19,826 nucleotides of DNA from Oscillospiraceae bacterium (GTDB taxonomy: Bacteria; Bacillota; Clostridia; Oscillospirales; Oscillospiraceae): positions 1 to 19,826 of the forward strand of contig JAGBGB010000292.1 in NCBI GenBank assembly GCA_017936205.1, written 5' to 3'. Below the pieces are notes generated by a model. It had not been told where the DNA came from. It saw only the letters and a list, made by a program, of their open reading frames with translations, and did not search any database. Positions 6,451 through 19,045 of this stretch are shown here, one piece after another; within the stretch, counting starts at the first letter, position 1; every line of letters starts with the position of its first letter. Both the position numbers and the translations under genes were made by a program.

Positions 6451-6456
6451 TTTTTT
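6404..6456 (-). promoter_or_regulatory. -1 programmed ribosomal frameshift signal
   Basis: On the minus strand the gpG frame ends TCA AAA AAC TGA, so the heptamer A_AAA_AAC (6456-6450) is in the correct phase for a tandem -1 slip. Six bases after it, TGCCGTAT (6443-6436) can pair perfectly with ATACGGCA (6411-6404), an 8-bp stem; an inner CCCG/CGGG stem (6433-6430 with 6418-6415) can form within the loop. Slippery heptamer, short spacer and stimulatory hairpin are the standard bacterial and phage arrangement. Slippage enters the 6154-6450 frame directly. Confidence 0.88.
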
Positions 6457-6935
6457 GATTCAATAACCTTCGTGAGCCATGACATGTAGTCACTGAGCAG
6501 CTCTGTCAGCTCTGCCAAGGTCAGGTCGTCCATCATCTTCCGGGCATCTACCTGCAGAGCTGCGGTATTGTGGGACAGGATCTTAGATGCCAGCAGGTAC
6601 AGCTCCTGCTCCTCAGTAGCAGATTGTCTCCCGCAGCCAATACGCTGCAGGAGCACGCCGATTCGTTCAAAGCTGTCTGCTACAGCCTTGGTGGGGGTTC
6701 TCAGATGTATAACCTGTCCATCACGCAAGACAAGCCTGTAAGTGTCTCTGGGAGTGCCGCTAAGATCTAAGCCTGCATAGCTGGTGTCCAAATTGGACAC
6801 CGCTTTCTTAGGTGGTTCTACAGGCTGCACAGGAGGAGTGGAAGGTGCAGAAAAAGCTTTCCGCTTCCACAAAACAAAGCAGAAAATGATTAACATGATC
6901 ACAAGGATCATGTTGAAAACAATAAGAAATTTCAT
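6447..6935 (-). CDS. Tail assembly chaperone gpG-like, with N-terminal membrane segment
   Basis: 162 aa; the ATG at 6935 is preceded by AGGAGG five bases away. Residues 46-162 (starting LDTSYAGLDLSG, then YRLVLRDGQVIHLRTPT and a helical remainder) look like a siphovirus tail assembly chaperone, and the location between major tail protein and tape measure fits. The N-terminus is unusual: residues 1-23 are a strongly hydrophobic segment followed by WKRK and a Pro-rich linker (residues 30-44), so the protein would be membrane anchored with its chaperone domain cytoplasmic. No alternative start with a good ribosome binding site is visible that would skip the segment. The palindrome at 6783-6801 encodes the VSNLDT stretch at the linker/domain junction. 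The last sense codons contain the frameshift heptamer. Confidence 0.8.
   Translation of the reverse strand: MKFLIVFNMILVIMLIIFCFVLWKRKAFSAPSTPPVQPVEPPKKAVSNLDTSYAGLDLSGTPRDTYRLVLRDGQVIHLRTPTKAVADSFERIGVLLQRIGCGRQSATEEQELYLLASKILSHNTAALQVDARKMMDDLTLAELTELLSDYMSWLTKVIESKN
6783..6801. promoter_or_regulatory. 19-bp palindrome copy 1 (parS-like / operator candidate)
   Basis: GGTGTCCAAATTGGACACC: two 9-nt arms that are perfect reverse complements around one central base. It is identical to the copies at 12414 and 18986 except for the central base. It lies inside the tail-chaperone gene, encoding V-S-N-L-D-T on the minus strand, at the boundary between the membrane/linker region and the chaperone domain. 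The likely reader is the phage ParB, but this is inference. Confidence 0.75.
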
Positions 6936-6953
6936 AGATCCTCCTACATTGGA

Positions 6954-6986
6954 AGCTGTGCGGATCCACAGGGGTCACGCACAGCT
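6954..6986 (-). other. Intergenic hairpin between major tail protein and chaperone genes
   Basis: AGCTGTGCG and CGCACAGCT are perfect 9-nt arms around a 15-nt loop in the 61-bp gap after the major tail protein stop. There is no T-run on either side, so it is not a classic intrinsic terminator. It may act as an mRNA 3'-end stabiliser or partial attenuator that lets the abundant tail-tube protein be made in excess of the chaperone (inference). Confidence 0.5.
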
Positions 6987-6996
6987 CCGTTTGTGA

Positions 6997-7656
6997 TTAT
7001 TCGGCTTCGGTGCCGGAATCGGGCTCAGCGCCACCGTTATCAGCAGGCTGATCTCCCGTAGTGGAAGCGGTTGCTTCCGTCTGAGTGCCACGATCCTCAA
7101 AGATCAGTGCGAGAGTACCACCCTTATCATGAGGCTCCGCTTGGAACTCCGGCTCCAGCTTGGATGTGTTGTTCCGAGCAAAGGGGACGGTCAGACCTGC
7201 TCCGTTGGTGCCCATGATCGCAATATACAGAGGTGCATACTTGGGATCTGTGTGTTCAAAGACAATAACATAGGTCTCTTCGTTGTCATTGTCCAAGCCT
7301 CCGATGCGGAGCACCTTGAATCTGCCATTATCGGCTTCTTCCACTCTTCCAGTACTGATCAGATCTGCCATTGCATCGAGGCCCCATGAGAAAAGCCCAC
7401 CTTTCAGGGACACTGCTTCGTCAATCAAAACATTGCGAGACAAAGTCCCATGGTCATCTTTTTCTTCGTGTCTCTCGCAGGAATAGTTAAAGGTTGCGCC
7501 ACCGGTAGTCTCACCAATGAGGTTTTCGCTTTCACAAAGTGCCACAAGCTCTGCAAAAGAAGGCATCGTACGGCTCGGGCATTTAACCAGATAAAACCGC
7601 CCGCTTCCAATCGGGACAGATGTCTTATCACGAACAGGCCGATTAAGTTCAGACAT
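6997..7656 (-). CDS. Major tail protein (tail tube)
   Basis: 219 aa, ATG at 7656 with AGGAGG (7668-7673) upstream. The size, mostly beta composition and location right after the neck/tail-completion genes and before the chaperone pair are those of siphovirus tail-tube proteins. These stack as hexameric rings around the tape measure. Segments such as IGSGRFYLVKCPSR, ALIFEDRG and the NDNEETYVIVFEHTDP strand region fit the tube fold. The last 27 residues after ALIFEDRGTQ are low-complexity, acidic and Ala/Thr/Gly rich, probably a disordered surface tail. No Ig-like C-terminal domain is seen. Confidence 0.85.
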   Translation of the reverse strand: MSELNRPVRDKTSVPIGSGRFYLVKCPSRTMPSFAELVALCESENLIGETTGGATFNYSCERHEEKDDHGTLSRNVLIDEAVSLKGGLFSWGLDAMADLISTGRVEEADNGRFKVLRIGGLDNDNEETYVIVFEHTDPKYAPLYIAIMGTNGAGLTVPFARNNTSKLEPEFQAEPHDKGGTLALIFEDRGTQTEATASTTGDQPADNGGAEPDSGTEAE

Positions 7657-7676
7657 AAATTTAATCCTCCTTATTT

Positions 7677-8000
7677 TTACACTCTCTCAGTGTACGAGAA
7701 AGTATATCTTGTCATAAATAGCCGGAGTTGAGGATCCAGAACACGAGGTTCCTTCCTCCAGTGCATGGCTTCTGCATTAAAAGCCTCCTGCAGTCGTTCG
7801 TGAGCTTCCGGATCCGGCTTGTCCATAAGCTCATACAATTCGATCTCAACATCATGGTCCAGAAGCTCGTTGTGATAGTCAGAGCCATCTGCTTGGATGG
7901 TATCGCCCCATGCGGCATAGGTCTCTCTGGGCTGTTCGTTCCAGTAGGTCTCGCCGCCGGGAATTTTGGCATTTTGCAAAAGTACATCTACAAAGTTCAT
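7677..8000 (-). CDS. Tail terminator / tail completion-like protein
   Basis: 107 aa, starting with an ATG that overlaps the previous stop (ATGA), so translationally coupled. It is acidic and small, begins MNFVDVLLQNAKIPGGETYW, and sits between the gp10-like gene and the major tail protein. In HK97/SPP1-type gene orders this is the place of the tail terminator or tail-to-head joining protein, which caps the tail and stops tube polymerisation. No diagnostic motif was recognised, so the assignment is mainly positional. Confidence 0.6.
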   Translation of the reverse strand: MNFVDVLLQNAKIPGGETYWNEQPRETYAAWGDTIQADGSDYHNELLDHDVEIELYELMDKPDPEAHERLQEAFNAEAMHWRKEPRVLDPQLRLFMTRYTFSYTERV

Positions 8001-8410
8001 TGAGCGAACTCCCCTCTGATTGCATCATCGTAATTCTGCAGAACACGCTGCAAGGCATTCTGCAGGAAGGGATTAGGTGCAAGGATCCTGCCATCCTTCG
8101 TCCGGTGAGCCTTTGCCAAAAGATGTGTCAACCTGCTGTTGGGTGCTTTGACATACCACAAAAATCGGCTGGCCCCAAATGCAGAATTCTGAATCCTTTT
8201 AGAAGCTATCGATTCAAAGAAGTGGGATCTGCTCTTAGATCTATCCCATGCACCGATCGGAGCGTCGGACTTTGTCAGACGCACAAGCTCTTTTGTGGCT
8301 GCTGCAGTCAGCTCATCCAGACGGTCCACCTTTTGGAGAGCGTACTGTTGCAGCAATGCCCGGAGAGCATCGTCAAGTTGTCCGGGAGAGATAGGCGGCA
8401 GCTCAGCCAC
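7997..8410 (-). CDS. HK97 gp10-like neck / head-tail protein
   Basis: 137 aa from a GTG at 8410, preceded by GGGGGTGAG at short spacing and overlapping the previous gene by 8 nt. The segment RLTHLLAKAHRTKDGR followed by NPFLQNAL resembles the conserved core of the HK97 gp10 family (RLTHLLE-x-GH-x2 ... P-x2). This family is found in siphovirus connector regions and involved in neck or tail completion. The neighbours on both sides are also connector-sized proteins. Family assignment is good; the precise structural role is inferred. Confidence 0.75.
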   Translation of the reverse strand: MAELPPISPGQLDDALRALLQQYALQKVDRLDELTAAATKELVRLTKSDAPIGAWDRSKSRSHFFESIASKRIQNSAFGASRFLWYVKAPNSRLTHLLAKAHRTKDGRILAPNPFLQNALQRVLQNYDDAIRGEFAQ

Positions 8411-8723
8411 GGTAGCTCACCCCCGTCAGACGGACATTGCGGTGACGCTCGAAGTAGTCATCGTACTCCGTCACCTTGAAAAAGGCAGGCTGTCCGTCAC
8501 CGTCTTTGCCGTAGCGAATACGGTAGTCCTGAGTATTGAGCCGCATTGCAGCCACTACAGAGCTGTAGCGGACATCAAAGTTCAGGGTCATGGGAGCCTG
8601 GATCGCTGCACCATCCAGGCCCTCCGTTCCCTTAGCCTTGTTAACCTTGGCATGGACAGTAGACACCAGCTCCCAATCGGTACCGGATTTCCGCTCCAGA
8701 TGAATGATCTGATTTCGGTTCAT
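8403..8723 (-). CDS. Head-tail adaptor / head closure protein
   Basis: 106 aa, ATG at 8723 behind TAGGAGG. The layout IIHLERKSGTDWELVST near the N-terminus and IRYGKDGDG...FFKVTEYDDYFERHRNVRLTG at the C-terminus resembles the small beta-barrel head-closure (stopper) family represented by SPP1 gp16. Members dock under the adaptor ring to retain packaged DNA and provide the tail attachment surface. It is the second of the four connector genes downstream of the capsid gene. Confidence 0.75.
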   Translation of the reverse strand: MNRNQIIHLERKSGTDWELVSTVHAKVNKAKGTEGLDGAAIQAPMTLNFDVRYSSVVAAMRLNTQDYRIRYGKDGDGQPAFFKVTEYDDYFERHRNVRLTGVSYRG

Positions 8724-8732
8724 AGTAACCTC

Positions 8733-9011
8733 CTAAAAGGCAGGATCTGTCTGATTTGACACAGCCTCGTGCTTGAGCTGATTGATCAAAGAGCGAAGTC
8801 CAATGGTCAAATTCCCGGTCACACCGCCGTCGAACCACTCCAGGACAAGCGAGAACGCCGCCAGGTGATACTTTTCGCTATCTGACTCCTGTATACCTGC
8901 CCCGCCTAAATAGTCTCTTGCGGCGTGATACAGCATTGTCAAATAGCTGTCATCCTCATCGTGATCGATCCGGCAGTGCGCCGTTAACAGGCGCCGGACT
9001 TCCGGATCCAA
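8733..9011 (-). CDS. Head-tail connector (gp6/gp15-like adaptor)
   Basis: The open frame reaches an ATG at 9074, but that start lies 90 nt inside the capsid gene. The family usually begins a few residues before the helical phrase ending in L-R-I-D-H-D-E-x-D. Here that phrase is LLTAHCRIDHDEDDSYLTML, and a TTG at 9011 gives a 92-aa protein of the usual size. The ribosome site for the TTG is weak, so coupling to capsid translation (28-nt overlap) is likely; the start is uncertain. Members form the ring that extends the portal and receives the head-closure protein. The following helices (YHAARDYLGGAG, YHLAAFSLVLEWFD) match the all-helical fold. Confidence 0.78.
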   Translation of the reverse strand: MDPEVRRLLTAHCRIDHDEDDSYLTMLYHAARDYLGGAGIQESDSEKYHLAAFSLVLEWFDGGVTGNLTIGLRSLINQLKHEAVSNQTDPAF

Positions 9012-10249
9012 AAGACGGGAATGCCACGCTTCAGCATGGAAGAGGAATCCATCTCCTGAGCATCCATGGAGCACATGACACGAGCTTCCCAGCCGCCCTT
9101 TGCCCAGGCTTCGCCGCCAACATTGGTGGTGTTCATGGTCATGCCGTTACGGACAAACAGACCTGCAAAGGCTGCAAGATTGCCGCCGTACAGAGGAGCG
9201 TAGGCGACTCCCTCTTCTTCGATATCGGGGATCAGATCTACATCAGCGTAGACTACGCGGCGACCCTTGATACGGTCGAAATCGCCGGAGATATCCGGCT
9301 TGAAGAAGGCACGACCGTCCTTGTCTACCCATTGATCCATATCATCGTAGCCGTTGGCGTTGGTCAGGAACATAGCTGCACGGGAGTGGAAGGTGTTCAG
9401 TTCCTTGTTCAGCATACGCTTGACAGCTGCAATCTTGGCATTATCATCATCCCCGGTAAGAGCAGTGAAGGGCAGCTTGTTCAGCATGGCAAGGATCAGG
9501 CCGTTCTTGGTCGCAACATAGCGGCCGGCAAACCATTCAGCCAGGTAGTCCATAAGCCCCTGAGCATTGGACATCAGTTCACCGGAGATAGCGACACGAT
9601 CGCCGTAGCTGTGGCAGTTATAGCCGATCCGCTTGACCTTGGGACCCTCGCCCATGGGGATGGGAGCGTCCTCTTCCACAGAGCTAAGAGGTGCTCTGCC
9701 TGCAGACAGTTCGATATTCCGCCAGCCCTTCAGGGTAGATACATTCTCCACATGAGCAAACTGGGACAGATCCACATAGTCCTTGCTGAGACGCTGTACA
9801 GCGAGCTCGAAGCTCTCAGGAACGAGAAATCCGCCATCTGCACCCGCAGGATCGCCGCCGGCTACGGTCATAGCCTTATGCAGGATCTCAAGACCATCGT
9901 GATGAGTAGCAGGACGGGCTCCCATCTGCATAGCCTTCAGCCATGCGTTAGTATACTCGTTACAGCTACGGATGTCAGAAAGCTGCTTTGCCTTGGACAC
10001 ATCCTCTGCAGAGGTACCCTGGGTGCCGGGAGCAGAGATGTTTTCGGGGGCAGGGCTGCCGGATGTGCCGAAGCGGGACTTTTCGGCAAGCAATGCTTCA
10101 CACTTCTCGATCTCAGGCACAAAGCTCTTGGCTTCTTCCAGGGCTTTGTCGTAAGCAGCCTGATCTCCGGCTTCCAACGCCTTCTCGGCAGCTTCGAGCT
10201 GAGCGAATCGCTTATTCTTCAGCTCCTGGCACTTTCTAAAAAGACTCAT
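8984..10249 (-). CDS. Major capsid protein (HK97 fold)
   Basis: 421 aa, ATG at 10249 with GGAGG upstream. Residues 1-60 form a charged coiled-coil delta/scaffold domain (helix rich in Lys/Glu/Ala). This is followed by a Ser/Gly/Pro linker to about residue 85 where the prohead protease is expected to cut. The HK97 fold follows: the GADGGFLVPE entry strand (about 135-144) and the G-E-L-M-S-N-A helix region, as in HK97-family capsids. It lies directly after the protease and overlaps the connector gene by 28 nt, the standard head-gene order. A long open frame on the opposite strand over this gene is a codon-usage shadow. Confidence 0.95.
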   Translation of the reverse strand: MSLFRKCQELKNKRFAQLEAAEKALEAGDQAAYDKALEEAKSFVPEIEKCEALLAEKSRFGTSGSPAPENISAPGTQGTSAEDVSKAKQLSDIRSCNEYTNAWLKAMQMGARPATHHDGLEILHKAMTVAGGDPAGADGGFLVPESFELAVQRLSKDYVDLSQFAHVENVSTLKGWRNIELSAGRAPLSSVEEDAPIPMGEGPKVKRIGYNCHSYGDRVAISGELMSNAQGLMDYLAEWFAGRYVATKNGLILAMLNKLPFTALTGDDDNAKIAAVKRMLNKELNTFHSRAAMFLTNANGYDDMDQWVDKDGRAFFKPDISGDFDRIKGRRVVYADVDLIPDIEEEGVAYAPLYGGNLAAFAGLFVRNGMTMNTTNVGGEAWAKGGWEARVMCSMDAQEMDSSSMLKRGIPVFWIRKSGAC

Positions 10250-10254
10250 TTTGT

Positions 10255-10908
10255 TTAACCTCCAAATCTTAATTTTTCGATGGCAAGCCGGGCTTTGGCG
10301 GCTTCCACATCGTTTATGGACATATTGGACATTTCAGCGGATTTCTGCACACCCGCTGCAGGTTGAGCAGGAACTGCCACAAAGGAAGCCTCGTAGGCGT
10401 CCTTTGCCTCGCTCAGGATCACATGGCAGGTTTTGCCTTCGTAAACACCGCCTCTGCGGTGATCACATTCCCAAAAGGCTTTGCCGCAAATGCTGCAGGT
10501 GGCTTTGCCTACGGCACAGCCCACGCTTACCTCTTTCAGGATGCCTCCGTCGATCATAGCGATCAGATCCTCGTTCCCGGAAAGGCGAAGCATATAAACA
10601 TCGGAAATGAGGCAAGTTACCGATCCCTCTGTCTCCACACGGGTGGCATAGATTCGTGCAGTCTGCTTAGAGGCCGCCCAAATATGATCAAAGAGGAAGG
10701 GCTTCCCCAAGAACAGTGTTGCAAGCTCCTTGAGGGTATCGGGATGGAATTTCTCATTATCCCGATCCACGATGTCATCGCACAAACGGACAGGGAAAGT
10801 GTAGACCTCCTCCGCTGTCAGCTCCTTGCGACTTAGACGGTTAATGGCTGCCATATCAGGAGCTCCGGTGGGTGAAGCAACAGATGCGGACTTATTTACT
10901 CGGAACAC
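10255..10908 (-). CDS. Prohead protease (HK97 U35-like) with Cys/His insert
   Basis: 217 aa from a GTG at 10908, right after the portal stop and within reach of GGAGG; an ATG at 10854 is an alternative start. It matures the capsid by removing the scaffold/delta domain. The phrase INRLSRKELTAEEVYTFPVR, H75 in FLFDHIWA, S128 in KEVSVGCAVG and E173 in DAYEASFVAVPAQPAAGV fit the His/Ser/acidic catalytic pattern of this protease family. Between S128 and the C-terminal strand is an insert with C138, C141, C148, H150, C161 and H162 that looks like a zinc site. Upstream portal and downstream capsid support the call. The last about 30 residues are helical, reminiscent of a self-cleaved tail. Confidence 0.88.
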   Translation of the reverse strand: MFRVNKSASVASPTGAPDMAAINRLSRKELTAEEVYTFPVRLCDDIVDRDNEKFHPDTLKELATLFLGKPFLFDHIWAASKQTARIYATRVETEGSVTCLISDVYMLRLSGNEDLIAMIDGGILKEVSVGCAVGKATCSICGKAFWECDHRRGGVYEGKTCHVILSEAKDAYEASFVAVPAQPAAGVQKSAEMSNMSINDVEAAKARLAIEKLRFGG

Positions 10909-12195
10909 TTACGGTTCCACCTCCTTCTTTTGATTTGCATTACGGGCAATGCTCAGTGCCTCAAACTGATCAAGTGGCACAAAGTTCAAGCTGGCTTTTC
11001 GTACGTGGCCACCGGGGACAGAGGGACGATCTTCCAGTTCAAGGATGTCATCCACGCTGTAGGCTCCAATATCATGCATCGTTCGGTAATAGTTGGCTCT
11101 GGCTGCTGTGTCGCCTCTAAGGCGGCCGTCCAGGTTGTGCTTGATCCTCAGCCGGTTCAGATCACTATCGAAGAGGAGCTTATAGGAATCCTCCTCTTCC
11201 ACCATCTTCAGGAGAGCCATGCCGTGACCTTGGATAAACTCCAGGTTGTTCTGTTCATTGGAAGCGTAGGTCTGTTTTCCTGCCATGATCGCATGAAGGG
11301 GCACCATGAAGAATCGGGCAATGTCAGCAACGCTAACCTCCTTCGACAAGACGAAGCTCTGATCGTAGGGGTCGATCTTAATAGGCTTGTATTCCAAGCC
11401 ATTATCCAGAATTGCAATACGGGCAGTATTGGCACTGCCGCCGTGAGCACGCTCCCACGCTCGACGTAAGTTTTCCTTACGAGTCAGGAACCTTGTGCCC
11501 GTTTTGTCGTTGGGATCCTGAACCTCAGAAAAGCCGCTTAGATCGGTATCTGTAGTCAGGACACCACCGGGCTGAGAATTGTTGCGATAGACAGAAGCCT
11601 CGTACTCCTCGCCTGCGGTGATTTTTGCAAGGGTCCGGGACGCATAATGTAGGGGGCTAACTCCGGTATATCCATCCCGGCTGCCCATATTGTAGTGGCT
11701 GATCTCCTCGGAATCGAAAGCATATTGCTTGCCGGTTGTCGGATGGGAATAGACATACAGCAGCTTGCCGTCTAACCATTCCAGGCTGACACAGTCAGGG
11801 TGGAGGGGAACACGCTCTACCACTCTTCCGCTTTTCGGATCCCGGTAGTTGTACGAGTATCCGCTGCCTCGGAGCAGCATACACCGCATCGAATACCGCT
11901 TAAAGGCACTGGGCGTCTGATATGGATTCGGACGAACATTCAGGACTCGGTGCAGTTCGTGGTCTGTGATACGCTTTCGGGACTGCGTATCAAAAACATA
12001 CATAGGTAAGGCACAGTAGAAATCGCAAATATACTCGACGCAGGCATATACAGCAGATAGTTTCAGTGCATCCTCAGAGGACAGGCTCGGATCTATCCCC
12101 TGCAGCCAGCCCTCAGGGCTGTCCAAGGTAAGGATCTGGGAACCGGCAGCCACAGCAGAGGGAGCTGGAGCAGCCTTGATCTTGCGTAATATCAC
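10909..12195 (-). CDS. Portal protein (HK97 family)
   Basis: 428 aa from a GTG at 12195 behind AAGGAGG (7-nt spacing). Recognisable portal features include ALKLSAVYACVEYICDF near residue 45 and HELHRVLNVRPNPYQTPSAF near 80. Later come MLLRGSGYSYNYRD, a stretch of beta strands (VPLHPDCVSLEW), GVSPLHYASRTL and ARFFMVPLHAIM. This family forms the dodecameric ring at one capsid vertex through which the terminase pumps DNA. Position between terminase and protease is canonical. The last 30 residues (KASLNFVPLDQFE) correspond to the usual C-terminal tail after the crown region. Confidence 0.95.
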   Translation of the reverse strand: MILRKIKAAPAPSAVAAGSQILTLDSPEGWLQGIDPSLSSEDALKLSAVYACVEYICDFYCALPMYVFDTQSRKRITDHELHRVLNVRPNPYQTPSAFKRYSMRCMLLRGSGYSYNYRDPKSGRVVERVPLHPDCVSLEWLDGKLLYVYSHPTTGKQYAFDSEEISHYNMGSRDGYTGVSPLHYASRTLAKITAGEEYEASVYRNNSQPGGVLTTDTDLSGFSEVQDPNDKTGTRFLTRKENLRRAWERAHGGSANTARIAILDNGLEYKPIKIDPYDQSFVLSKEVSVADIARFFMVPLHAIMAGKQTYASNEQNNLEFIQGHGMALLKMVEEEDSYKLLFDSDLNRLRIKHNLDGRLRGDTAARANYYRTMHDIGAYSVDDILELEDRPSVPGGHVRKASLNFVPLDQFEALSIARNANQKKEVEP

Positions 12196-12207
12196 AGGCT
12201 CACCTCC

Positions 12208-12399
12208 TTAGGGTGCGGTCAGATAGCCCAGAACAATGAGTTCAGCACCACCTACCACATATCCTGCCGGAGGATAGATCATTCCGGCACCGGCTGCCAC
12301 TGCCACAATTCCGACAATAATCACAAGATCACTGAACAGCTCAGACAGGATCCTGCCCATGGGCTTCTTTTCACGAGGCTTTTTTTCCTTATCGTCCAT
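12208..12399 (-). CDS. Small membrane protein of unknown function
   Basis: 63 aa; ATG at 12399 preceded by AAGGAGTGAGCA, a strong ribosome site. A Lys/Arg/Glu-rich N-terminus (residues 1-15) is followed by hydrophobic residues 24-40 (DLVIIVGIVAVAAGAG) and 44-61 (AGYVVGGAELIVLGYL), so two closely spaced membrane spans or a hairpin are likely. It resembles small membrane proteins often found next to packaging or portal genes in siphoviruses, but no function is established here. It is not in the usual lysis position, although a holin-like protein cannot be excluded. The 19-bp palindrome at 12414 lies just upstream of its ribosome site. Confidence 0.65.
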   Translation of the reverse strand: MDDKEKKPREKKPMGRILSELFSDLVIIVGIVAVAAGAGMIYPPAGYVVGGAELIVLGYLTAP

Positions 12400-12413
12400 T
12401 GCTCACTCCTTTC

Positions 12414-12432
12414 GGTGTCCAATTTGGACACC
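12414..12432. promoter_or_regulatory. 19-bp palindrome copy 2 (parS-like / operator candidate)
   Basis: GGTGTCCAATTTGGACACC with perfect 9-nt arms, located in the short gap between the terL stop (12440) and the small membrane gene (12399). It is the only one of the three copies outside coding sequence. It is not followed by a T-run, so terminator function is unlikely. The likely role is ParB or repressor binding. Confidence 0.78.
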
Positions 12433-12439
12433 ATGTTTT

Positions 12440-14239
12440 TTACATTTCATAGTCCGCACCGGCAGCTGCCCTGCTCAGATCCGGCTTGGTCTCACGGAGG
12501 AGAGCGAGAGACAAAGCATTCATCACGGCCGCCAGTGGGTCTATACGCTCCGAATCGTCCTTGTGCTTCTTGGATAATCTCAGATCTCCGTAGTAGTTTT
12601 CAAACTCTATGGCATTACGAAGGCACCACATCAGCAACGGTGACCGTTCGAATACCAGTTTACCGGCAAGAAGCAGTTCTCGGAAGGTCTTGACCGCCAA
12701 GGTCTGACCGGCACAGGTCTGACGCACTTCAACACAAAAGTCCTCATTTCGGCGGTCTGCGTTAATGTGATTGGCAAGGTCAACAGCATTGTGACCGTCA
12801 TAGCCCAGATTAATCAATTTCAATTTCCGAGACTCTTCCTGCCTGCAGATCCAGTCATAAGCAAAGTGATTTTCAGTGGATTCGCCCGGAGTGAGAGTGC
12901 AGCAGCCTTGCCTTGCCCAATCCCTGTAGGGGACCTTGTCGCTGTGTTCATGCCGAGTGGCCCCTGCTTCCGGCATGAAGCCGTGAGCTGTAATTGCATA
13001 ACGACCATCCGGGAGAGGAATCACCATGCCGGTGCCGGTCAGGTCGATACGCTTACCTAAGTCAAAGCCGGGCCATGCGTCAAGGCCCGTGACAAGCTTG
13101 GTAAACTCCTCAGAAGATACCTGCAGCTCCTTCGCCTTAGCTCTCTGCACCTCGTTCAGATAGCTGTTTGGGCTTGCGGTCTGCCATTGGCACAGACGGC
13201 GGGACAGGAAGCGGCGGATCTTAATAGCATCACCGCTTCCATAAGCAGCGGTGTACTCGCTCTCGATCTGCGTCAGGAGATCCTTTGCATATTCGCTGCC
13301 ATAGCGGAGCATTGGATTTGCCCAGCACCACTTTGTTTTGTCATGAGGATCCTCACCAAATGGAAGTTGCCGGATCATAACAAAGTAATGGTCATCCCGA
13401 ATCTCACCGTCCAAGATAGACTTTGCATACAGCTCCTCGGTCATGGCGGGGCGGTTGTCTGCATCATCTCCGGCAGTCATGATGCAGTCCAGCAAGCATT
13501 GAGGGCGTTTACCCAAGGCATCAAAGCCTGTATTGTAGAGCGTGGCATCCGGGTGAGACTCATACTCATCAACGCAGTAATAGCTGGGAGCAAGACCTTC
13601 CTTGTTCTTTGTATCGGAGGACAGCGCGCGCATGTGACCACCACGGGTCTTGTTGGTGATCGGATTGCTCCGTGGGATTTTCAGCCTTTTCGCATAAGCG
13701 GGAGAAATCTTCGCTATGGCTCTGGCATCGTCCATTACGCGCTTCGCCTGTTCCCGGTCCACTGCGACACACTCCACCTCAGGCTGCAGGTCAAAGACAG
13801 CTAACTCCGGATGGTACGGAGGATAGTAGCAGTCACAACTCATGTGGTACAAACCCTTCACCGAGTTTTCTGAGGATTTTCCTTGTCCACGACCACGCTC
13901 ATTCAAGCTGCGCTTAAATCGACGCTTGCCGGTGTCCTTATGGACCCATCCATAAAGGACACCAAGGTCAAACTGCTGCCAAGGCTCCAGCTCTATGGGC
14001 TGTCCCTGCAGGACTCCTCGACAATGTCGCGCCAGTTGGAAAGCCTTGTAGATCCGATCGGCGCGGGTTTCATCGAACACATATGGGAAGGCTTCTGTCC
14101 CCTGCCGTGCAAGATCGTCCAGATGTCGTTGACAAGCCTTGATCTCATAGGGACCGCACAGATCATGGAGCCGGCCTTGGGTGACCTGCTTGGCATACAC
14201 CGCTGCCGGGTGGTGTTTACCGTTGGGATAGTTGGGCAT
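12440..14239 (-). CDS. terL: Terminase large subunit
   Basis: 599 aa from an ATG at 14239, one base after the terS stop; an in-frame ATG at 14329 lies 90 nt upstream inside terS and is unlikely. ATPase motifs: Walker A ERGRGQGKS (about 114-122) and Walker B YYCVDEYE (D224, E225). The C-terminal nuclease shows candidate acidic metal ligands at D393/D399, D481 (LGYDGHN) and D567 (RIDPLAAVMNA). It is the motor/nuclease that cuts concatemers and translocates DNA through the portal. Together with the P27-type small subunit and HNH nuclease it forms the packaging set typical of cos phages. A near-palindrome with GGTGTCC/GGACACC ends lies within it at 13931-13963. Confidence 0.95.
   Translation of the reverse strand: MPNYPNGKHHPAAVYAKQVTQGRLHDLCGPYEIKACQRHLDDLARQGTEAFPYVFDETRADRIYKAFQLARHCRGVLQGQPIELEPWQQFDLGVLYGWVHKDTGKRRFKRSLNERGRGQGKSSENSVKGLYHMSCDCYYPPYHPELAVFDLQPEVECVAVDREQAKRVMDDARAIAKISPAYAKRLKIPRSNPITNKTRGGHMRALSSDTKNKEGLAPSYYCVDEYESHPDATLYNTGFDALGKRPQCLLDCIMTAGDDADNRPAMTEELYAKSILDGEIRDDHYFVMIRQLPFGEDPHDKTKWCWANPMLRYGSEYAKDLLTQIESEYTAAYGSGDAIKIRRFLSRRLCQWQTASPNSYLNEVQRAKAKELQVSSEEFTKLVTGLDAWPGFDLGKRIDLTGTGMVIPLPDGRYAITAHGFMPEAGATRHEHSDKVPYRDWARQGCCTLTPGESTENHFAYDWICRQEESRKLKLINLGYDGHNAVDLANHINADRRNEDFCVEVRQTCAGQTLAVKTFRELLLAGKLVFERSPLLMWCLRNAIEFENYYGDLRLSKKHKDDSERIDPLAAVMNALSLALLRETKPDLSRAAAGADYEM
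13931..13963. repeat. Near-perfect inverted repeat inside terL with palindrome-like ends
   Basis: Arms of 14 and 15 nt (GGTGTCCTTATGGA and TCCATAAAGGACACC) differ by one inserted A and flank a 4-nt centre. The outer GGTGTCC/GGACACC are the same half-sites as in the three 19-bp palindromes. It encodes GVLYGWVHKDTG, a segment that may be conserved in large terminases, so coincidence is possible. Confidence 0.5.
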
Positions 14240-14240
14240 A

Positions 14241-14729
14241 TCAATCACCGAATAAGTCACTGTCCGGATCCAGCTCGGCGGCAGCTCGCTTCTGTGCCAG
14301 TCTGGCGCGGGACTGAGGAGTGAAGCCAAGCTTATCTGCGTAGCTCATGAGGCTGCGCTCCAAGGCTGCGATCTTGGTAAGCAAACTCTCCAGCTTATCC
14401 GTGGATTCCGTGGTAGCTTTATCGTTGTCTGCCTTAACCGCGTCGGACAGAAGCTTCTCACACAGAGCGTTTAGAGCATCACGGCGAGCAAGCTGCTGAC
14501 AGTAGGACATGAACATTTCCTGATCCAGGCAGTCAAGCAGATCCACCCCTTCGACACGTTCAAGGATGCTGTCCCAGTATTTCTTCGCAGGCTTCGAGAA
14601 ACCCCTTGGAGCTTTAAGCTTGATAGGGTCATCTCTGGTCAATGATTTCTCGGCATCTGTACGCGCCTGCTTTTCAGCCTGTGTCGTATGCTTGCTCTGG
14701 TTGCCGAGGATCTTGGGTGCTGAGCTCAA
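14241..14729 (-). CDS. terS: Terminase small subunit (P27 family-like)
   Basis: 162 aa from a TTG at 14729, chosen because AGGAGG lies 8 nt upstream; a longer open frame up to an ATG at 14822 runs through low-complexity GC-rich DNA. Recognisable phrases include APRGFSKPAKKYWDSILERVEG, LDQEMFMSYCQQLARRD and the C-terminal LGFTPQSRARLAQKR. The last (GxTPxSRxRL) is typical of P27-type small terminases, which recognise DNA for packaging. It lies directly upstream of terL (stop at 14241 next to the terL start) and downstream of an HNH gene. The DNA-binding site may be the GC-rich intergenic just upstream. Confidence 0.9.
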   Translation of the reverse strand: MSSAPKILGNQSKHTTQAEKQARTDAEKSLTRDDPIKLKAPRGFSKPAKKYWDSILERVEGVDLLDCLDQEMFMSYCQQLARRDALNALCEKLLSDAVKADNDKATTESTDKLESLLTKIAALERSLMSYADKLGFTPQSRARLAQKRAAAELDPDSDLFGD

Positions 14730-14943: not shown

Positions 14944-15318
14944 TTACTTGCGTTTTTCTGTGCTGTTTTGCCGCATTTCTGCAGCTGTCTTTCGGCTGTG
15001 GCAAGCATGACAGAGAGACTGATGGTTCTTGGGGTCGATGAACAATGCCCAGTTGCCACGGTGGGGCTGGATGTGGTCCACATCTGTCGCGCGGACTCGC
15101 AGACCCCGGCGAGAGCACTCACGGCAGAAGGGTTCACGCAGAAGCTGCGCCGGCCGAAGATTGTCCGTCCAGATCGGAAGGCCGTACCACCGGTGCCAGG
15201 CTGCAGCCTCTGCACTTCGCCTGGATGCGTCCTTAGGCTTATGCTTGGGACAGTAGCCCTCCCGGGTCAGGACACCGCACCCCGCATGGGCACATAGACG
15301 AATTGGTTTCTTTGCCAT
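14944..15318 (-). CDS. HNH endonuclease (packaging-associated)
   Basis: 124 aa from the ATG at 15318, preceded by GGAGGTGATCCT; a longer frame to 15363 runs into the terminator and is not likely. The N-terminus has a Cys/His set (C9, C14, C23, H26). C65/C68 with C103/C106 form the structural zinc pairs, and the HNH core is DVDHIQP (H82), N98 and H107 in NHQSLCHACHSRKT. HNH proteins encoded beside P27-type small terminases are known to be needed, with the large subunit, for specific cos cleavage in several phages. Its gene starts 17 bases after the T-run of the upstream terminator, which is odd for expression of the packaging operon. Confidence 0.9.
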   Translation of the reverse strand: MAKKPIRLCAHAGCGVLTREGYCPKHKPKDASRRSAEAAAWHRWYGLPIWTDNLRPAQLLREPFCRECSRRGLRVRATDVDHIQPHRGNWALFIDPKNHQSLCHACHSRKTAAEMRQNSTEKRK

Positions 15319-15334
15319 AGGATCACCTCCGGAG

Positions 15335-15388
15335 AAAAACAAAAAGAGCCTGAACCAACACACCTACTCGGTGATTGGCTCAGGCTCT
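15335..15388 (-). terminator. Intrinsic terminator upstream of the packaging operon
   Basis: On the minus strand AGAGCCTGAGCCAA (15388-15375) pairs with TTGGTTCAGGCTCT (15358-15345), 14 bp with a single G-T wobble. An inner CACC/GGTG stem extends it, and TTTTTGTTTTT follows (15345-15335). The KTR stop codon TGA (15382-15380) lies inside the left arm, so a ribosome finishing that gene would block hairpin formation. A second copy of AAGAGCCTGA just upstream (15403-15394) can compete for the right arm. Confidence 0.85.
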
Positions 15389-15571
15389 CAGGCTCAGGCT
15401 CTTAGGATCGATATTGACGATGGACTCTTTGCGGCAAAGTTTGCAATAAACGGAGATGTTTTTTCCCTCCGTTCCCGGCAACAAGCGCAGCACCTTGTGC
15501 CGGTTGCATTTGGGACAAAGCAGGTATCCACCCTTCGTGGATATTTTACCACAGATCTTTTCGTTTTGCAA
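15380..15571 (-). CDS. Cys-rich KTR family zinc protein
   Basis: 63 aa from a TTG at 15571 with GAGGTG eight bases upstream. CPKC (about 19-22) and CKLC (about 42-45) frame a small beta region (KVLRLLPGTEGKNISVYCKLCRKESIVNID). This matches the Cys-rich KTR family, small zinc-ribbon proteins common on Firmicutes phages and conjugative elements, whose function is unknown. The gene is sandwiched between rep and the terminator; its stop codon is inside the terminator stem, so its translation may modulate read-through into the packaging operon. Confidence 0.75.
   Translation of the reverse strand: MQNEKICGKISTKGGYLLCPKCNRHKVLRLLPGTEGKNISVYCKLCRKESIVNIDPKSLSLRA
15543..15571 (-). promoter_or_regulatory. 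Candidate sigma-70/sigma-A promoter upstream of packaging operon
   Basis: TTGCAA (15571-15566), 17-nt spacer, TAAAAT (15548-15543), with TGG just before the -10 (extended -10). Four of six and five of six consensus bases. It lies in the start of the KTR gene and would send transcripts into the terminator at 15388-15335 before the HNH gene. It may be fortuitous because the region is AT rich. Confidence 0.35.
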
Positions 15572-15614
15572 GAGTTTTGCACCTCATTTCTTTTAATTCT
15601 CCAGAAAATAAACA

Positions 15615-16385
15615 TTACCTCAAGGCTGAAATTAGCGCGAGGTCTTCTTCAATTGTTCCCTCCGGCAGAAGGGCCTCCAGGAAGTGAAATTCACCATAGC
15701 CATTGTTCCGAGAGAGGTTGTCCAGAACAAATGAATCAGGCGGCAAATCGTGAAACTGATCTCTTGCAGAGACCCAGCCGGTGTAGATATGGGGCTTTTT
15801 CAATCCCAAGGAGCTGCGCCACATTCGTTCACCAACAAAGTTCCGGCCGTTTTCTCTGGGTTCCTTGCTGAGATATCGTGCCCAGCCGTCATAGCCCTTG
15901 GCAGAGATAAGCTGTATATCCACATCGCTGCCGTTTCTTTCCCAGAGTCTTCGGATCGTTTCATAATCGTCCCCGGTGGATGTAGTGATCAGATGGTGGT
16001 GGAGTCTGCCGGAACTGTGCCCCATCTCAGTCACATAGAGGTAAGGCAGCTCCTGCCCGGCAGTTCTCCGATCCGCACGAAGACGGCGGATAAAATACTT
16101 CAATTGGTTCTCTGCATCCTTGCGACGCTTCGGAAGTCGTTCGTCTCGGTAGGTCAGCGTTACCACGAGATCCTTAGGACCAAAGTTGGCAGCAATCACA
16201 GCTTTCAGCTTCTGCCAGGAGTGCTTTAGGTTCATGGCCTCCTGAGCTACCGAGGAGATCTGAGTCTTAGGCAGTCTCTCCTTCTGTGCCTCCCTCTCAT
16301 GGGAGAGGGAGTATTGAATAGATCTAACATAGTTTCCGGCAATGACTACCTTTCTTCGTTGCTTTCGATCAGCCAGAAGGATCAC
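15615..16385 (-). CDS. HUH rolling-circle-type replication initiator (Rep)
   Basis: 256 aa from a GTG at 16385; the open frame reaches an ATG at 16517, deep inside the lipoprotein gene, so the start is uncertain. It carries the Rep motifs in order. Motif I is LVVTLTYRDE (about 73-82), motif II is GRLHHHLIT (H129-H131, the HUH metal site), and motif III is WARYLSKE with catalytic Y171 and K174. This is a single-tyrosine HUH nuclease of the kind that nicks a replication origin and primes rolling-circle replication in small plasmids and ssDNA phages. Here it sits in a tailed-phage genome between parAB and the packaging genes. Origin nicking, transfer-like functions or phage replication are possible; no nick site was identified. 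Confidence 0.85.
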   Translation of the reverse strand: MILLADRKQRRKVVIAGNYVRSIQYSLSHEREAQKERLPKTQISSVAQEAMNLKHSWQKLKAVIAANFGPKDLVVTLTYRDERLPKRRKDAENQLKYFIRRLRADRRTAGQELPYLYVTEMGHSSGRLHHHLITTSTGDDYETIRRLWERNGSDVDIQLISAKGYDGWARYLSKEPRENGRNFVGERMWRSSLGLKKPHIYTGWVSARDQFHDLPPDSFVLDNLSRNNGYGEFHFLEALLPEGTIEEDLALISALR

Positions 16386-16659
16386 CGGCCTTCCCGGCAC
16401 AAAAGGGGCAAGGTTTATCGCCACTGAGGAGAATATATGTACCTTCCGAGGCGAACACAGGACCGGCCTCAGATGTTCGGACTTCAATGCCGCTTTCGCT
16501 TTCATACCACTGTTCAACCGTCAGGCAGCCGGAATAGTGATGTGTGTCGATATGGATCTTCTCGTAGTTGAAGCTGCCAAACCCTATCGACTTATTGCCG
16601 CAAGCAGTAAGGCTGATAATGCAAAGCACAATCAGTGCAAGGGCTAAAATCTTCTTCAT
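16369..16659 (-). CDS. Small lipoprotein
   Basis: 96 aa from the ATG at 16659, with AGGAGG nine bases upstream. A longer frame upstream lacks a suitable start. Residues 1-20 are a signal peptide (MKKILALALIVLCI) ending in the lipobox LTAC with C20 as the lipidated cysteine. The mature part is small and soluble, containing a CPFC pair near the C-terminus (residues 84-87). Phage-encoded lipoproteins often act at the host surface, including superinfection exclusion, but nothing in this sequence identifies the function. The last bases overlap the start of rep. Confidence 0.8.
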   Translation of the reverse strand: MKKILALALIVLCIISLTACGNKSIGFGSFNYEKIHIDTHHYSGCLTVEQWYESESGIEVRTSEAGPVFASEGTYILLSGDKPCPFCAGKAGDPSG

Positions 16660-16693
16660 AGACTGTAACCTCCTATTCAAAAAAAACAATGAA

Positions 16694-16831
16694 TCAATCT
16701 CTATTTGCTTCCTCTTTCCCTGCCTCCACAGCAGCTTCCAGAGTCTTTTGGGTCTCAGACTTCCGAGTAGCGGCAGATGATACAGCAGCCACAAAAACCA
16801 CTGCTGCAATCACAAGCAAGATCTTAAACAT
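16694..16831 (-). CDS. Single-span membrane peptide (45 aa)
   Basis: A short ORF with a good ribosome site: GGAGGAGG then ATG at 16831, ending TGA at 16694-16696. It encodes MFKILLVIAAVVFVAAV (one hydrophobic span, residues 4-20) followed by a charged helical tail (KSETQKTLEAAVEAGKEEANRD). It lies in the gap between the 73-aa unknown and the lipoprotein gene and fits the operon spacing. No function is recognised; a membrane-anchored regulator or lysis/exclusion accessory is possible. Confidence 0.6.
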   Translation of the reverse strand: MFKILLVIAAVVFVAAVSSAATRKSETQKTLEAAVEAGKEEANRD

Positions 16832-16855
16832 CAGTGCTCACCTCCTCCTTCAGCA

Positions 16856-17077
16856 CTATGAAAAGTCGTAATGGTCAAACAACCATCTCAAAGCACGAAC
16901 TAAATCGTCCTTTTTTATGCTGTTATGGGTTTCCATTCGTGCTACTGCTTCAATAGCTAAAACCTTTGTGGGAATTGCTATGGTATCATCATCAAGCATG
17001 GCTTCAACGATGGCACATGCCGCCCCAAGCGAGACATTATAGGTGGGAAAAGGGATTAACTTCCCTTCATTATCCAT
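16856..17077 (-). CDS. Hypothetical protein, 73 aa
   Basis: ATG at 17077 behind GGGGGGAGCAGG, overlapping the previous gene by 8 nt. The sequence (MDNEGKLIPFPTYNVSLGAAC ... DLVRALRWLFDHYDFS) is largely helical with no known motif, signal or zinc site. It lies within the replication/partition accessory cluster, with coupling to its upstream neighbour. No function can be assigned. Confidence 0.65.
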   Translation of the reverse strand: MDNEGKLIPFPTYNVSLGAACAIVEAMLDDDTIAIPTKVLAIEAVARMETHNSIKKDDLVRALRWLFDHYDFS

Positions 17078-17399
17078 CCTGCTCCCCCCGGTCCATCCTT
17101 GTACCGCATTGAGAGCAGAAGGGATTTAAATCATACACATCTTCGGCGTTCATTTCTTCACCGAAAGTCAAACGCCTTGCACAAACGGAGCAGTCCCATT
17201 CATCGCACTCCTGCGTACCATCAACAGATATCCACTGCCCATATACCACAGGAACGGCATCCACGGCAGAGATGGCGCGAACGATCCGCATAAGCTCTAC
17301 GATATCATCGACGGTATCCAGACTCTTTCGACCATCGTTTATGGCTACGATCCCATATTGCTCGATAGCCTTTACAGCAGCATCTCTGTCAATCAGCAT
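17070..17399 (-). CDS. Zinc-ribbon protein, 109 aa
   Basis: ATG at 17399 preceded by AGGAGG with 8-nt spacing; a GTG nine bases upstream overlaps the ribosome site. Residues 1-50 are helical (MLIDRDAAVKAIEQYGI, VDDIVELMRIVRAI). The phrase QWISVDG introduces a C-terminal zinc ribbon with WDCSVC and FCSQCGTRM. Small proteins of this layout are common in Clostridia phages, with unknown function. It overlaps the upstream Cys-rich gene by 11 nt and the downstream gene by 8 nt. Confidence 0.7.
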   Translation of the reverse strand: MLIDRDAAVKAIEQYGIVAINDGRKSLDTVDDIVELMRIVRAISAVDAVPVVYGQWISVDGTQECDEWDCSVCARRLTFGEEMNAEDVYDLNPFCSQCGTRMDRGEQDG

Positions 17400-17589
17400 T
17401 GGATGCACCTCCTACAGGCTTTGCCCTGAAGCGGATCGGTTCAAAATCGCATTTTGTATTACTTGCTTTCACACCGTAAAAGACGGTGCAATGCGAGAAG
17501 TAGCCACAATCTCCGCAAGTCTTACCCTGAGGCAGGTCCATGCATTGATGTCTGCAGCTCTTACGATTTGGGCAGTCTCTACATTCCAT
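17389..17589 (-). CDS. Cys-rich small protein, 66 aa
   Basis: Starts MECRDCPNRKSC at the ATG at 17589, behind GGAGGTGC with 10-nt spacing, and overlaps the parB 3' end by 11 nt. Eight cysteines (CRDC, C12, C16, CGDC, C34, C47) suggest one or two zinc sites, followed by a basic FEPIRFRAKP tail. A longer frame reaching 17661 is inside parB and does not have a better start. The cysteine pattern recalls the cluster in the middle of ParB just upstream. Function unknown. Confidence 0.65.
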   Translation of the reverse strand: MECRDCPNRKSCRHQCMDLPQGKTCGDCGYFSHCTVFYGVKASNTKCDFEPIRFRAKPVGGASNAD

Positions 17590-19045
17590 CGTCTGAAGCA
17601 CCTCCGAGGAAGAAAGTGAAGCCGGTCGGGGCAGCCGTGCAGGCAGGTGCCGCAGCGACAAGGACTTCTTTGCTAACGGCCGAGAAGTGAAGAAGGACCT
17701 TAGCCATAGCGGAATACCACTGGTTCCCCTTTCGCAACGCCAACCTTGTATGGATCAAGGGCACACCGTCATCTGCCTTATCGAGTTTTTCCGGTGATTC
17801 CGCCCTGTAGTGGTAAGCAAGCGTATAAAAGCCATCCGGCAGATCTCCGATCTGATCGGCAGGGATCCACTGAGGGAAGCTGCCGGGAGCTGCGGAGGGA
17901 GTCGGGGAATCAAAACCAAGAAGCTCATTGGGAGTGATGCCGTACGCTTTGCCATATTCAGCAAGTGTTTTTGCTGTATGGGTTTGGTTGGTTTCATCTT
18001 TATAGACCGAAGATATGTCCGACTTCATTGCAAGAGCTGCTTCCTTGAGGGACAAGCCGGCATTTACTCGCGCAGCTCGTATAGCTTGACAGATCTGCCC
18101 ATCGTAAGTCTTCAGAAGCTCCTGGGCTTGCTTCTTGACGATCGAGCAAACATCCTCACAGTCAAATTTGTAATCGCAATACTTACAACAAGAGCTCCCA
18201 CATTTCTGCCATTTGGGAAGTGTCTTATTTTGTCTCGCATCAATTACGGCTGCATGAGTACAAGCCTTGTAATTTCCACTTTTGTCCTTCTTTTGCTCAT
18301 AGCAGTCTCTGGGAGGAGGCGGCGGTACATAAAAAGGATCTCTTCCGGCTTGGAGGTTTTCTTTGTATCTCTTAATTGCAGAGTTGGTCAAGTTCCATAG
18401 GTTTCCCTTGTAATGCTGATATAGCTCCTTCTGCTGCTCCTCCGGGAGATGAGCCAAAGCATAGGCTTCGGAGTCATTCAAGTATTTGTGCCCTTCGAAG
18501 ACCTTGATAAGATGCTCACTGATGTACTTAGCCCTTGCAAGCTGGCTCTCGGAAGTTTTGAGGATCTTTGCCACATGCTTTCGCATCTTGCCGGGCAACT
18601 CCATTCCCTGCTTCTGCAGTTCGATCAAGATTTCCTCCACACGCTCTGCAGACTTGGATTTTTCCCTCCATCCCAGCTCACGGGCCTCGGTGTTGGTCTG
18701 AATGAGCATCAGCTCCTCCAGCTCCGGGGAGCTGGGGCGGACGACGCGGCAGAGGACGGTGCCGAACTTGTCGGGCAGCTCCTGTGCCAGAGACTGCAGA
18801 GCCTTATGCCGACGGTGGCCGGCAATGATGCGATAGCGGCCGTTCTCGGCAGGAGTGACCACAGGGGGCTGCAGGATACCGTTTAGCTTGATGGACTCAC
18901 ACAGATCTGTGATGTCTTCCTCTACCGAGAAGAAGTTGTTTGGGTTGGGATCCATCAGGGAGACCTTGATCTCCTGCATTTCTCCGGTGTCCAATTTGGA
19001 CACCGATCTCAGATTGAGCGCATCCGCAAGACTAAATCCTGCCAT
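17579..19045 (-). CDS. ParB-like partition protein with Cys cluster and XRE-like domain
   Basis: 488 aa; ATG at 19045, overlapping parA by 14 nt, with GGAGG upstream. Residues 22-126 form a ParB/Spo0J N-terminal domain: GILQPPVVTP, then RYRIIAGHRRHKAL, the GxRR-type nucleotide (CTP)-binding motif, and QTNTEARELGWREK, corresponding to the second conserved box. Residues 150-180 carry a central DNA-binding HTH region. Unlike ordinary ParB it continues with a Pro run, a cysteine cluster (C248, C262, C282, C286, C287, C290, C296, C300) and an XRE-like HTH (about 317-376, AIRAARVNAGLSLKEAALAM ... GITPNELLG). A C-terminal module beginning QWIPADQIGDLPDGFYTL ends the protein. It likely binds the 19-bp palindromes, one of which is inside its own gene, and may autoregulate parAB. 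Partition versus regulatory role is inference. Confidence 0.87.
   Translation of the reverse strand: MAGFSLADALNLRSVSKLDTGEMQEIKVSLMDPNPNNFFSVEEDITDLCESIKLNGILQPPVVTPAENGRYRIIAGHRRHKALQSLAQELPDKFGTVLCRVVRPSSPELEELMLIQTNTEARELGWREKSKSAERVEEILIELQKQGMELPGKMRKHVAKILKTSESQLARAKYISEHLIKVFEGHKYLNDSEAYALAHLPEEQQKELYQHYKGNLWNLTNSAIKRYKENLQAGRDPFYVPPPPPRDCYEQKKDKSGNYKACTHAAVIDARQNKTLPKWQKCGSSCCKYCDYKFDCEDVCSIVKKQAQELLKTYDGQICQAIRAARVNAGLSLKEAALAMKSDISSVYKDETNQTHTAKTLAEYGKAYGITPNELLGFDSPTPSAAPGSFPQWIPADQIGDLPDGFYTLAYHYRAESPEKLDKADDGVPLIHTRLALRKGNQWYSAMAKVLLHFSAVSKEVLVAAAPACTAAPTGFTFFLGGASDDGM
18986..19004. promoter_or_regulatory. 19-bp palindrome copy 3 inside parB (parS-like / operator candidate)
   Basis: GGTGTCCAATTTGGACACC with perfect 9-nt arms, encoding V-S-K-L-D-T of ParB residues 15-20 on the minus strand. 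It is just upstream of the ParB domain. Centromere or operator sites close to or inside par genes are common; binding here could also give autoregulation. Confidence 0.8.

Follow-up and report, generated by a model that had tools for sequence, protein, structure and literature searches.

Dispersed palindromes as predicted landing sites of a phage-encoded ParB in a family of gut-bacterial viruses

Introduction

Why would a tailed phage that encodes its own ParA and ParB carry the same palindrome three times, once within parB and twice elsewhere? The question is raised by contig JAGBGB010000292.1 of an Oscillospiraceae bacterium (assembly GCA_017936205.1), whose entire 19,826 nucleotides are referred to below as the window. 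The list of open reading frames (ORFs) and their family matches identify the window as part of a tailed phage or prophage. The evidence, drawn from sequence comparison, indicates that a family of gut-bacterial viruses, many of them integrating, carries these palindromes as predicted landing sites for its own ParB.

Palindromes of the window

An earlier note on this DNA had described three 19-bp palindromes with perfect arms in which only the centre varies. This description was confirmed: the sequence GGTGTCCAANTTGGACACC was found without mismatch at 6783-6801 (centre A), 12414-12432 (centre T), and 18986-19004 (centre T). These were the only palindromes of the window with arms of at least nine and loops of fewer than four nucleotides, and a fourth copy within three mismatches was not found in the window. 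None of 200 dinucleotide shuffles of the window reached three copies (shuffle mean 0.01), in agreement with the note's view that a chance origin is negligible. Across the contig's own assembly (2.46 Mb, 72.5% complete), the motif occurred within two mismatches on this contig alone. The sites and the genes that hold or adjoin them are given below, with the ribosome-binding site abbreviated as RBS, the helix-turn-helix as HTH, and counterparts in the related phage G001.

6783..6801, no strand: predicted ParB site 1, GGTGTCCAAATTGGACACC, within ORF 6935-6447; counterpart G001 11325
12414..12432, no strand: predicted ParB site 2, GGTGTCCAATTTGGACACC, between the terminase stop and the RBS of the next gene; counterpart G001 16949
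18986..19004, no strand: predicted ParB site 3, GGTGTCCAATTTGGACACC, parB codons 15-20; counterpart G001 24232
6447..6935, minus strand: late ORF, function not assigned by family match (PHROG 29863), containing site 1 as V-S-N-L-D-T
12208..12399, minus strand: gene of a 63-aa membrane protein (PHROG 502), with its RBS after site 2
12440..14329, minus strand: terminase large subunit (TerL domains), upstream of site 2
17579..19045, minus strand: parB, 488 aa, with ParB_N, HTH, and a C-terminal XRE-like domain
19032..19811, minus strand: parA, ATPase of 259 aa (AAA_31, E 9.7e-34; PHROG 164, ParA-like partition protein)

Site 2 occupies a 40-nt gap that separates the terminase stop from the beginning of the 63-aa ORF, and site 3 reads V-S-K-L-D-T (ParB residues 15-20) in the same frame as the peptide of site 1. 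The placement in parB, in a gene junction, and in a third ORF was as previously described, except that the label "tail gene" for the third was derived from position, PHROG 29863 being of unknown function. The shared V-S-x-L-D-T frame also holds for both coding copies, but it is not special to that pair, as the sites of related records occupied each of the three ORF frames and intergenic positions too.

Sites in related phages

A protein search with ParB led to G001, a 37.6-kb phage of IMG/VR that is the nearest long relative of the window and encodes a ParB of 83% identity. Its eight sites, six perfect and two with one mismatch, comprise the three counterparts listed above, four more past the parA side, where the window is cut, and an eighth at 4627 without a counterpart in the window. 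Phage Cormatin (ON453905), in which the gene order is closely similar, contains four sites, at 15329, 21480, 23600, and 28505, of which one is a parB variant with two mismatches.

A total of 116 sites within one mismatch of the consensus GTGTCCRANTYGGACAC were found in 24 records, at densities of 0.8-2.1 per 10 kb (5.05 in G052), and none were found when the same records were shuffled three times. Most of these records came from the motif scan, so the number of sites per record is not independent evidence, while the protein-found sets are. When viral contigs were scanned for GTGTCCAANTTGGACAC, at least 120 stretches were recovered, compared with 0 and 9 matches for control palindromes of the same letters. 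The flanks of the consensus were mostly G..C or T..A, and the pair flanking the 17-mer was also symmetric, being complementary in 72 of 113 sites against 42.8 expected (the 113 omit the window's three sites, since G001 holds their counterparts). Beyond that one pair, the sequence was not conserved.

The suggestion of the earlier note that the sites form a late-gene set was not borne out: at least four of the eight sites of G001 lie outside the late region, and only the parB site is fixed across phages. Such turnover of positions speaks for selection on the number and spread of the sites. Gaps between sites over 18 records were more even than random (p=4e-4; p=0.013 without G037, where gaps measure 5.7-6.6 kb), which is suggestive only. 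Site pairs about 18-19 kb apart were also observed on two contigs of one genome (G213; L297-L299), with ParB absent from the stretches examined. In another phage with a distant ParB (L035), three copies of a different odd palindrome, TGATTTNNGAAATCA-like, occurred at 4906, 8703, and 9863, one of them just before parB. From this example, dispersed sites may be commoner among phage ParBs.

Linkage of the sites with ParB

Relatives of ParB were identified by protein alone and scored with a hidden Markov model of the alignment A1, and the motif was counted when present within two mismatches. It was present at 14 of 16 loci scoring at least 100 bits, at one of seven scoring 55-100 bits, and at none of 32 below 55 bits. 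The 16 loci include two pairs, L010 with L041 and L004 with L005, that are alike in score and match and represent the same ParB hit; these tallies, together with the fractions 17/21 and 36/51 given below, were summed by hand over several outputs. At L016, one of the two high-scoring loci without the motif, the similar sequence GTGACCGAATCGGACAC stands 36 nt upstream of parB; the other, L018, is considered below. As the earlier note had supposed, the dispersed set travels with this ParB, and close relatives of the protein keep the sites. A search of 51 site-bearing records of at least 20 kb, four of which were also protein-found, identified a ParB match in 36; this set leaves out at least one pattern-scan record longer than 20 kb (L130). 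Beside parB, a ParA match was found in 19 of 20 ParB-bearing records.

Among 245 genomes of the host's order, 10 contained the exact motif and eight contained this ParB at E 1e-20. Both occurred together in four genomes (p=9e-5; three genomes and p=0.001 without the window's genome), with motif and ParB on one contig in three of the four. A host-genome motif was rejected given its presence in only those 10 genomes and on few contigs. At L145, the reading frame of a distant ParB (60 bits) contains two sites, 69 nt apart at 1251 and 1320; both lie downstream of the ParB_N part and not at the start of that ParB.

The site at the start of parB

In 19 of the 20 ParB-bearing records, with G008 as the exception, a site is located in the interval from 35 nt upstream to 57 nt downstream of the parB start. 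A near-start site within two mismatches was found in 34 of 49 ParBs, a set that includes loci found by motif and in which ParBs with the same first 300 residues were collapsed to a single entry. Besides parB, none of the reference genes that have many homologues carries a site in the majority of phages.

The main group reads the site as V-S-x-L-D-T, of which L18, D19, and T20 are invariant in 25 aligned ParBs, and the segment is disordered in the ParB model (residues 1-19, pLDDT <50). In parBs with the exact site, the codon usage of each gene assigns the required codons a probability of 0.002-0.03, and relatives in which the peptide is changed to VSDSDT or VPESGT still have a complete palindrome. 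Because the codon choice is improbable and the peptide changes while the palindrome survives, the comparisons identify the DNA rather than the peptide as what is conserved here. In a low-GC group, the site is found upstream of parB instead. A case to the contrary is L308 (G306-C44), which has moved to GTGGTCCAANTTGGACCAC sites, at 3525, 4155, and 10501, and which keeps the peptide over a decayed palindrome at the parB start near 9600.

Site variants and the likely reader

In the 245-genome sample, ParBs that lack the exact motif are accompanied by coherent variants constructed in the same way. For example, six copies of GTGTTCAANTTGAACAC occur in G241 and three of GTGGTCCAANTTGGACCAC in G306, and the sites of G264 (six and three, on two contigs) and G296 (five) either combine a CC half with a TC half or consist of two TC halves. 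Likewise, GTGTCAGANTCTGACAC occurs three to four times within parB at L022, L024, and L045, and a single TTGACCAATTCGGTCAA stands upstream of parB at L020, L021, and L023. Variant forms of the GTGTCCAANTTGGACAC site include GTGTTCAA and GTGTCAGA. Across these comparisons, the letters of the site drift together with ParB.

The ParB of the window matched PF02195 (ParB_N) at E 3.1e-11, over the cut-off, and HTH_19 at E 5.8e-4, under its cut-off. A fold comparison matched it to Noc, ParB, and KorB, and a second comparison was limited to chains ranked by Foldseek. Two parts of the protein were considered as readers.

18512..18592, minus strand: helices 152-163 and 166-178 of the ParB model (HTH; proposed site reader, with R171), from the structure model and alignments
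17912..18112, minus strand: XRE-like domain of ParB, residues 312-378, dispensable for the site in relatives

The palindromes had been interpreted as a centromere or regulon read by ParB or by its XRE-like domain. The ParB-linked dispersed set agrees with the former, while the XRE-like domain was rejected as the family reader: nine of nine motif-bearing relatives had no Pfam match to it at E 0.01, and L147 had none even at E 1. Weak matches to this part inside the ParB frame were found in G055, G035, and G007, and the domain is variably present. Since it is missing from the nine relatives, the HTH region of ParB itself is the likely reader. At the position aligned to R171, the GTGTCC group has R, G241 has K, and L022 has I; because the mixed-site ParBs and L020 keep R, this residue is a pointer to a contact and provides no code. 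Taken together, ParB very probably reads the sites.

Placement beside gene starts

Just upstream of an RBS and start codon were 56 of the 113 sites, compared with 1,021 of 9,200 random positions (11%; p=4e-24), and the start codon followed 11-42 nt after these sites. Homologues of the 63-aa gene had a site just upstream in three of nine records. Of 19 integrase genes in 17 records, four had a site within 50 nt upstream of the first RBS and start, one at offset 0, and two at 154 and 276 nt. By analogy, such placement would suit KorB-like regulation. A promoter scan around the window sites found 10 promoters against 11.0 expected, hence no excess, and 12 were found against 8.4 expected (sd 3.1) around the early sites of G001. 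Both scans listed some palindromes as terminator-like, which we read as a side effect of the stem. Whether the sites have a regulatory role as well appears evenly balanced.

Integration and lifestyle

A tyrosine or serine recombinase was found in 17 of 21 ParB-bearing records of at least 28 kb, including G001 (tyrosine integrase); the 21 are those with a ParB match in the first of the two record sets, to which the integrase search was confined. Cormatin had no match to either recombinase family. It is described as an inducible chromosomal prophage of Flavonifractor plautii YL31 (PMC10197239), located at 1,128,657-1,164,096 of that genome, with a circularisation signal and a virome signal in vitro and in vivo (PMC10197239, Table 2). 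The parAB genes adjoin helicase and replication genes, so we infer that they are probably expressed while the phage replicates. In G001, a DUF3850 gene was observed downstream of parAB (21695-22024; L184 2695-3024), and fusions of ParB with DUF3850 next to parA have been reported in prophages (PMC12704722).

Gene content of the window

On the minus strand, from high to low coordinates, the window encodes parA, parB, small genes, a Rep protein (REP_ORF2-G2P), a cysteine-rich protein, and an HNH protein, followed by the small and large terminase, the 63-aa membrane protein, the portal, more late genes, and the tape measure. As the contig stops just past the parA start, it does not include the early and lysogeny region. 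A replication protein of the REP_ORF2-G2P type (window 15615-16517) in a tailed double-stranded DNA phage was an additional observation, and its homologues were found in 22 of the 24 site records.

Discussion

Taken as a whole, the account that we consider probable is that the palindromes form a distributed parS set with the consensus given above, that the phage's own ParB reads them with its HTH region, and that clamp loading at these sites serves partition and transcriptional restraint. Each site would act as a loading point: by analogy with ParB and KorB (PMC12704722; PMC11790492), ParB would bind CTP there, close into a clamp, and then slide away. Three to nine sites, one every few kilobases, would load ParB across most of a 30-40 kb element, and ParA would move and separate the ParB-loaded DNA while the phage is non-integrated, after entry or excision. 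Loaded ParB could also restrain transcription beside gene starts in the style of KorB, including that of parB and, in some phages, the integrase. The basis for this account is the conservation and dispersal of the sites, their linkage to parB, and the drift of the site along with ParB, while the loading, clamp, and sliding steps are borrowed from established ParB biology. That partition in the non-integrated phase is the main selected function has about an even chance of being correct. A more far-reaching possibility, which we hold only tentatively, is that the genome-tiling parS of integrating phages serves whole-genome loading of ParB clamps rather than plasmid partition, in which case ParB-CTP would coat, organise, and restrain the prophage or replicating DNA and feed back on integrase and parB. 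Under the same tentative interpretation, parS would be written into the parB coding sequence such that reader and site evolve as one unit.

Several observations weigh against the distributed parS set. The linkage with ParB is incomplete: a site was not found at L018, and no ParB match was found in 15 of the 51 long site-bearing records, so the check for co-occurrence among relatives that the earlier note proposed succeeded for the close relatives of ParB and fell short for these records. The site-bearing stretches of G116, G297, G213, G242, and G317 likewise had no ParB within the part examined, and the short stretches around the ParBs of G304 and G306-C89 yielded no site. Site-bearing elements without ParB may have lost it, may be incomplete, or may use a resident ParB, and an integrative element has been reported to hijack the parABS of a plasmid (PMC10954446). 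At the level of parB, L015 (G008), L101, and L140 have sites but none at this gene, and G306-C44 keeps the peptide VSNLNT over DNA that is no longer palindromic. As for the reader, the specific contacts of KorB lie outside its HTH (PMC5016525), so reading by the HTH is one that we infer. The canonical ParA-binding motif, for which PMC12704722 gives (L/F/I)G(K/R)G(L/F/I), was not found in the ParB N-terminus MAGFSLADALNLRSVSKLDTGE. Plasmid-prophage partition is not an obvious need either, because most long records encode integrases. Additionally, Cormatin is listed without a 3C signal (PMC10197239, Table 2), which offers no support for strong ParB-driven folding in the lysogen.

Among the alternatives, an operator regulon, in which ParB is mainly a KorB-like global repressor whose gene-start sites silence lysogen genes and partition is secondary or absent, is unlikely but deserves consideration. 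The excess of sites before an RBS, the short distances to start codons, and the sites near integrase genes are all expected under it, and long-range silencing is performed by KorB (PMC11790492). However, about half of the sites are away from gene starts, any site in a gap of a tightly packed phage genome tends to precede an RBS, and no reference gene other than parB is sited in most phages. The promoter scan of the window without excess and the retention of parA beside parB also speak against a purely regulatory set. Recognition by another protein, such as the XRE-like domain, a DUF3102 protein, or a phage or host regulator, is very unlikely, although it would accommodate the 15 long records without a ParB match. 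In G049 and G069, the sites are present, this ParB is missing, and a DUF3102 (PF11300) protein is encoded, in G049 directly after parA; overall, DUF3102 was found in five of 29 site-bearing records without an A1-type ParB. On the other hand, DUF3102 was absent from all 20 ParB-bearing records, its occurrence in whole genomes was not associated with the motif (5/10 with and 5/16 without, p=0.42), and a contig with a 63%-identical DUF3102 protein (L252) had no motif in the 21 kb examined. The XRE-like domain is missing in the nine motif-bearing relatives, host genomes seldom carry the motif, and another reader would leave the drift of the site with ParB unexplained. DUF3102 as a replacement reader, promising in phage records and unassociated in whole genomes, is kept as a lead.

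L234 (G049), 11543-12670: DUF3102 gene, possible replacement of ParB
L249 (G069), 9408-10466: DUF3102 gene, possible replacement of ParB

At L252, two copies of CTGGACACNGTGTCCAG, in which the half-sites stand in opposite order, were observed at 3171 and 6680.

An RNA hairpin acting beside the RBS on translation or mRNA stability is a highly improbable explanation. The site can fold into an 8-bp stem with a triloop (-11.7 kcal/mol), and half of the sites precede an RBS, but the stem is near-invariant, with almost no compensatory change inside the 17-mer, as expected for reading by a protein. One-sided variants of pair 6/10 on the sense strand were G.T in six and A.C in two cases at RBS-adjacent sites, and A.C in three and G.T in none at parB; because the counts reverse between the two, there is no clear preference for RNA-tolerated pairs. 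The G001 site at 32291, which also counts against a hairpin, lies between the ends of two converging ORFs. On these grounds, the hairpin is disfavoured. Finally, we give next to no credence to chance, shared ancestry of flanking genes, or a mobile repeat. Ancestry alone would give the counterparts of the three window sites in G001, but positions differ between phages, and the sequence past one flanking pair is not conserved. Chance was rejected by the shuffles of the window and of the 24 records and by the control palindromes, and coherent variants occur in other lineages.

The proposed ParB-site system resembles ParABS systems in general in its ParB_N and HTH protein, the adjacent ParA-type ATPase, and palindromic sites in or near the par genes. 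With chromosomal ParB-parS (Spo0J, Noc), it shares the ParB_N fold with HTH and several palindromic sites per replicon, but it differs in the absence of the canonical ParA-binding motif, and the phage site differs in sequence and in its odd length from the chromosomal parS, which we take to be TGTTTCACGTGAAACA. KorB with O_B of the IncP-1 plasmids RK2/RP4 is similar in the fold of the N-terminal and HTH domains; however, identity over the fold is 18%, and the host of KorB is a conjugative plasmid rather than an integrating phage. The O_B operator, presumably the 13-bp palindrome TTTAGCSGCTAAA, also differs from the site GTGTCCAANTTGGACAC. As both the ParA-binding motif and the KorB site sequence are lacking, the system falls outside the canonical chromosomal ParB and KorB subfamilies. 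The phage-plasmid N15 is a linear plasmid prophage of Escherichia coli. It is likewise temperate, with partition sites far from its par genes (PMC3235114), a dispersion comparable to that of the 116 sites in 24 records and the eight of G001, but integrases are encoded by most of the long records here. RedRock and other cluster A mycobacteriophages also have phage-borne parA, parB, and parS. Their parABS stands where relatives have an integration cassette, the prophage is extrachromosomal, and parS consists of two loci of 8-bp direct repeats (PMC7157519), whereas a recombinase is encoded by 17 of 21 long ParB-bearing records here. In parCAB of pMF1, ParB sites are also found along the element and in part inside ORFs, but pMF1 is a small plasmid with short repeat units and a ParB without GenBank homologues at the time (PMC3235114).

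Dispersed ParB-type sites as such are therefore known, having been reported for N15, RK2, pSM19035, and pMF1 (PMC3235114), and a 2025 survey of the ParB-CTPase fold reported divergent and fused ParBs in prophages (PMC12704722). The terms "palindrom" and "dispersed" are absent from the main text of that survey, and a description of the motif was not found in open-licence PMC literature on phage ParB with parS or palindromes, which is no proof of novelty. What appears to be new is that mostly integrating phages have a ParABS-like system whose sites are dispersed and also embedded in parB.

The finding provides a predicted DNA target for a family of phage ParBs, many of which occur in gut Clostridia, along with a naturally occurring set of ParB variants and their matching sites, from which ParB specificity may be worked out. 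It also poses the question of why phages that integrate retain a complete ParABS whose centromeres are dispersed. Should the sites have a regulatory role as well, long-range control of the KorB type would extend from conjugative plasmids to prophages.

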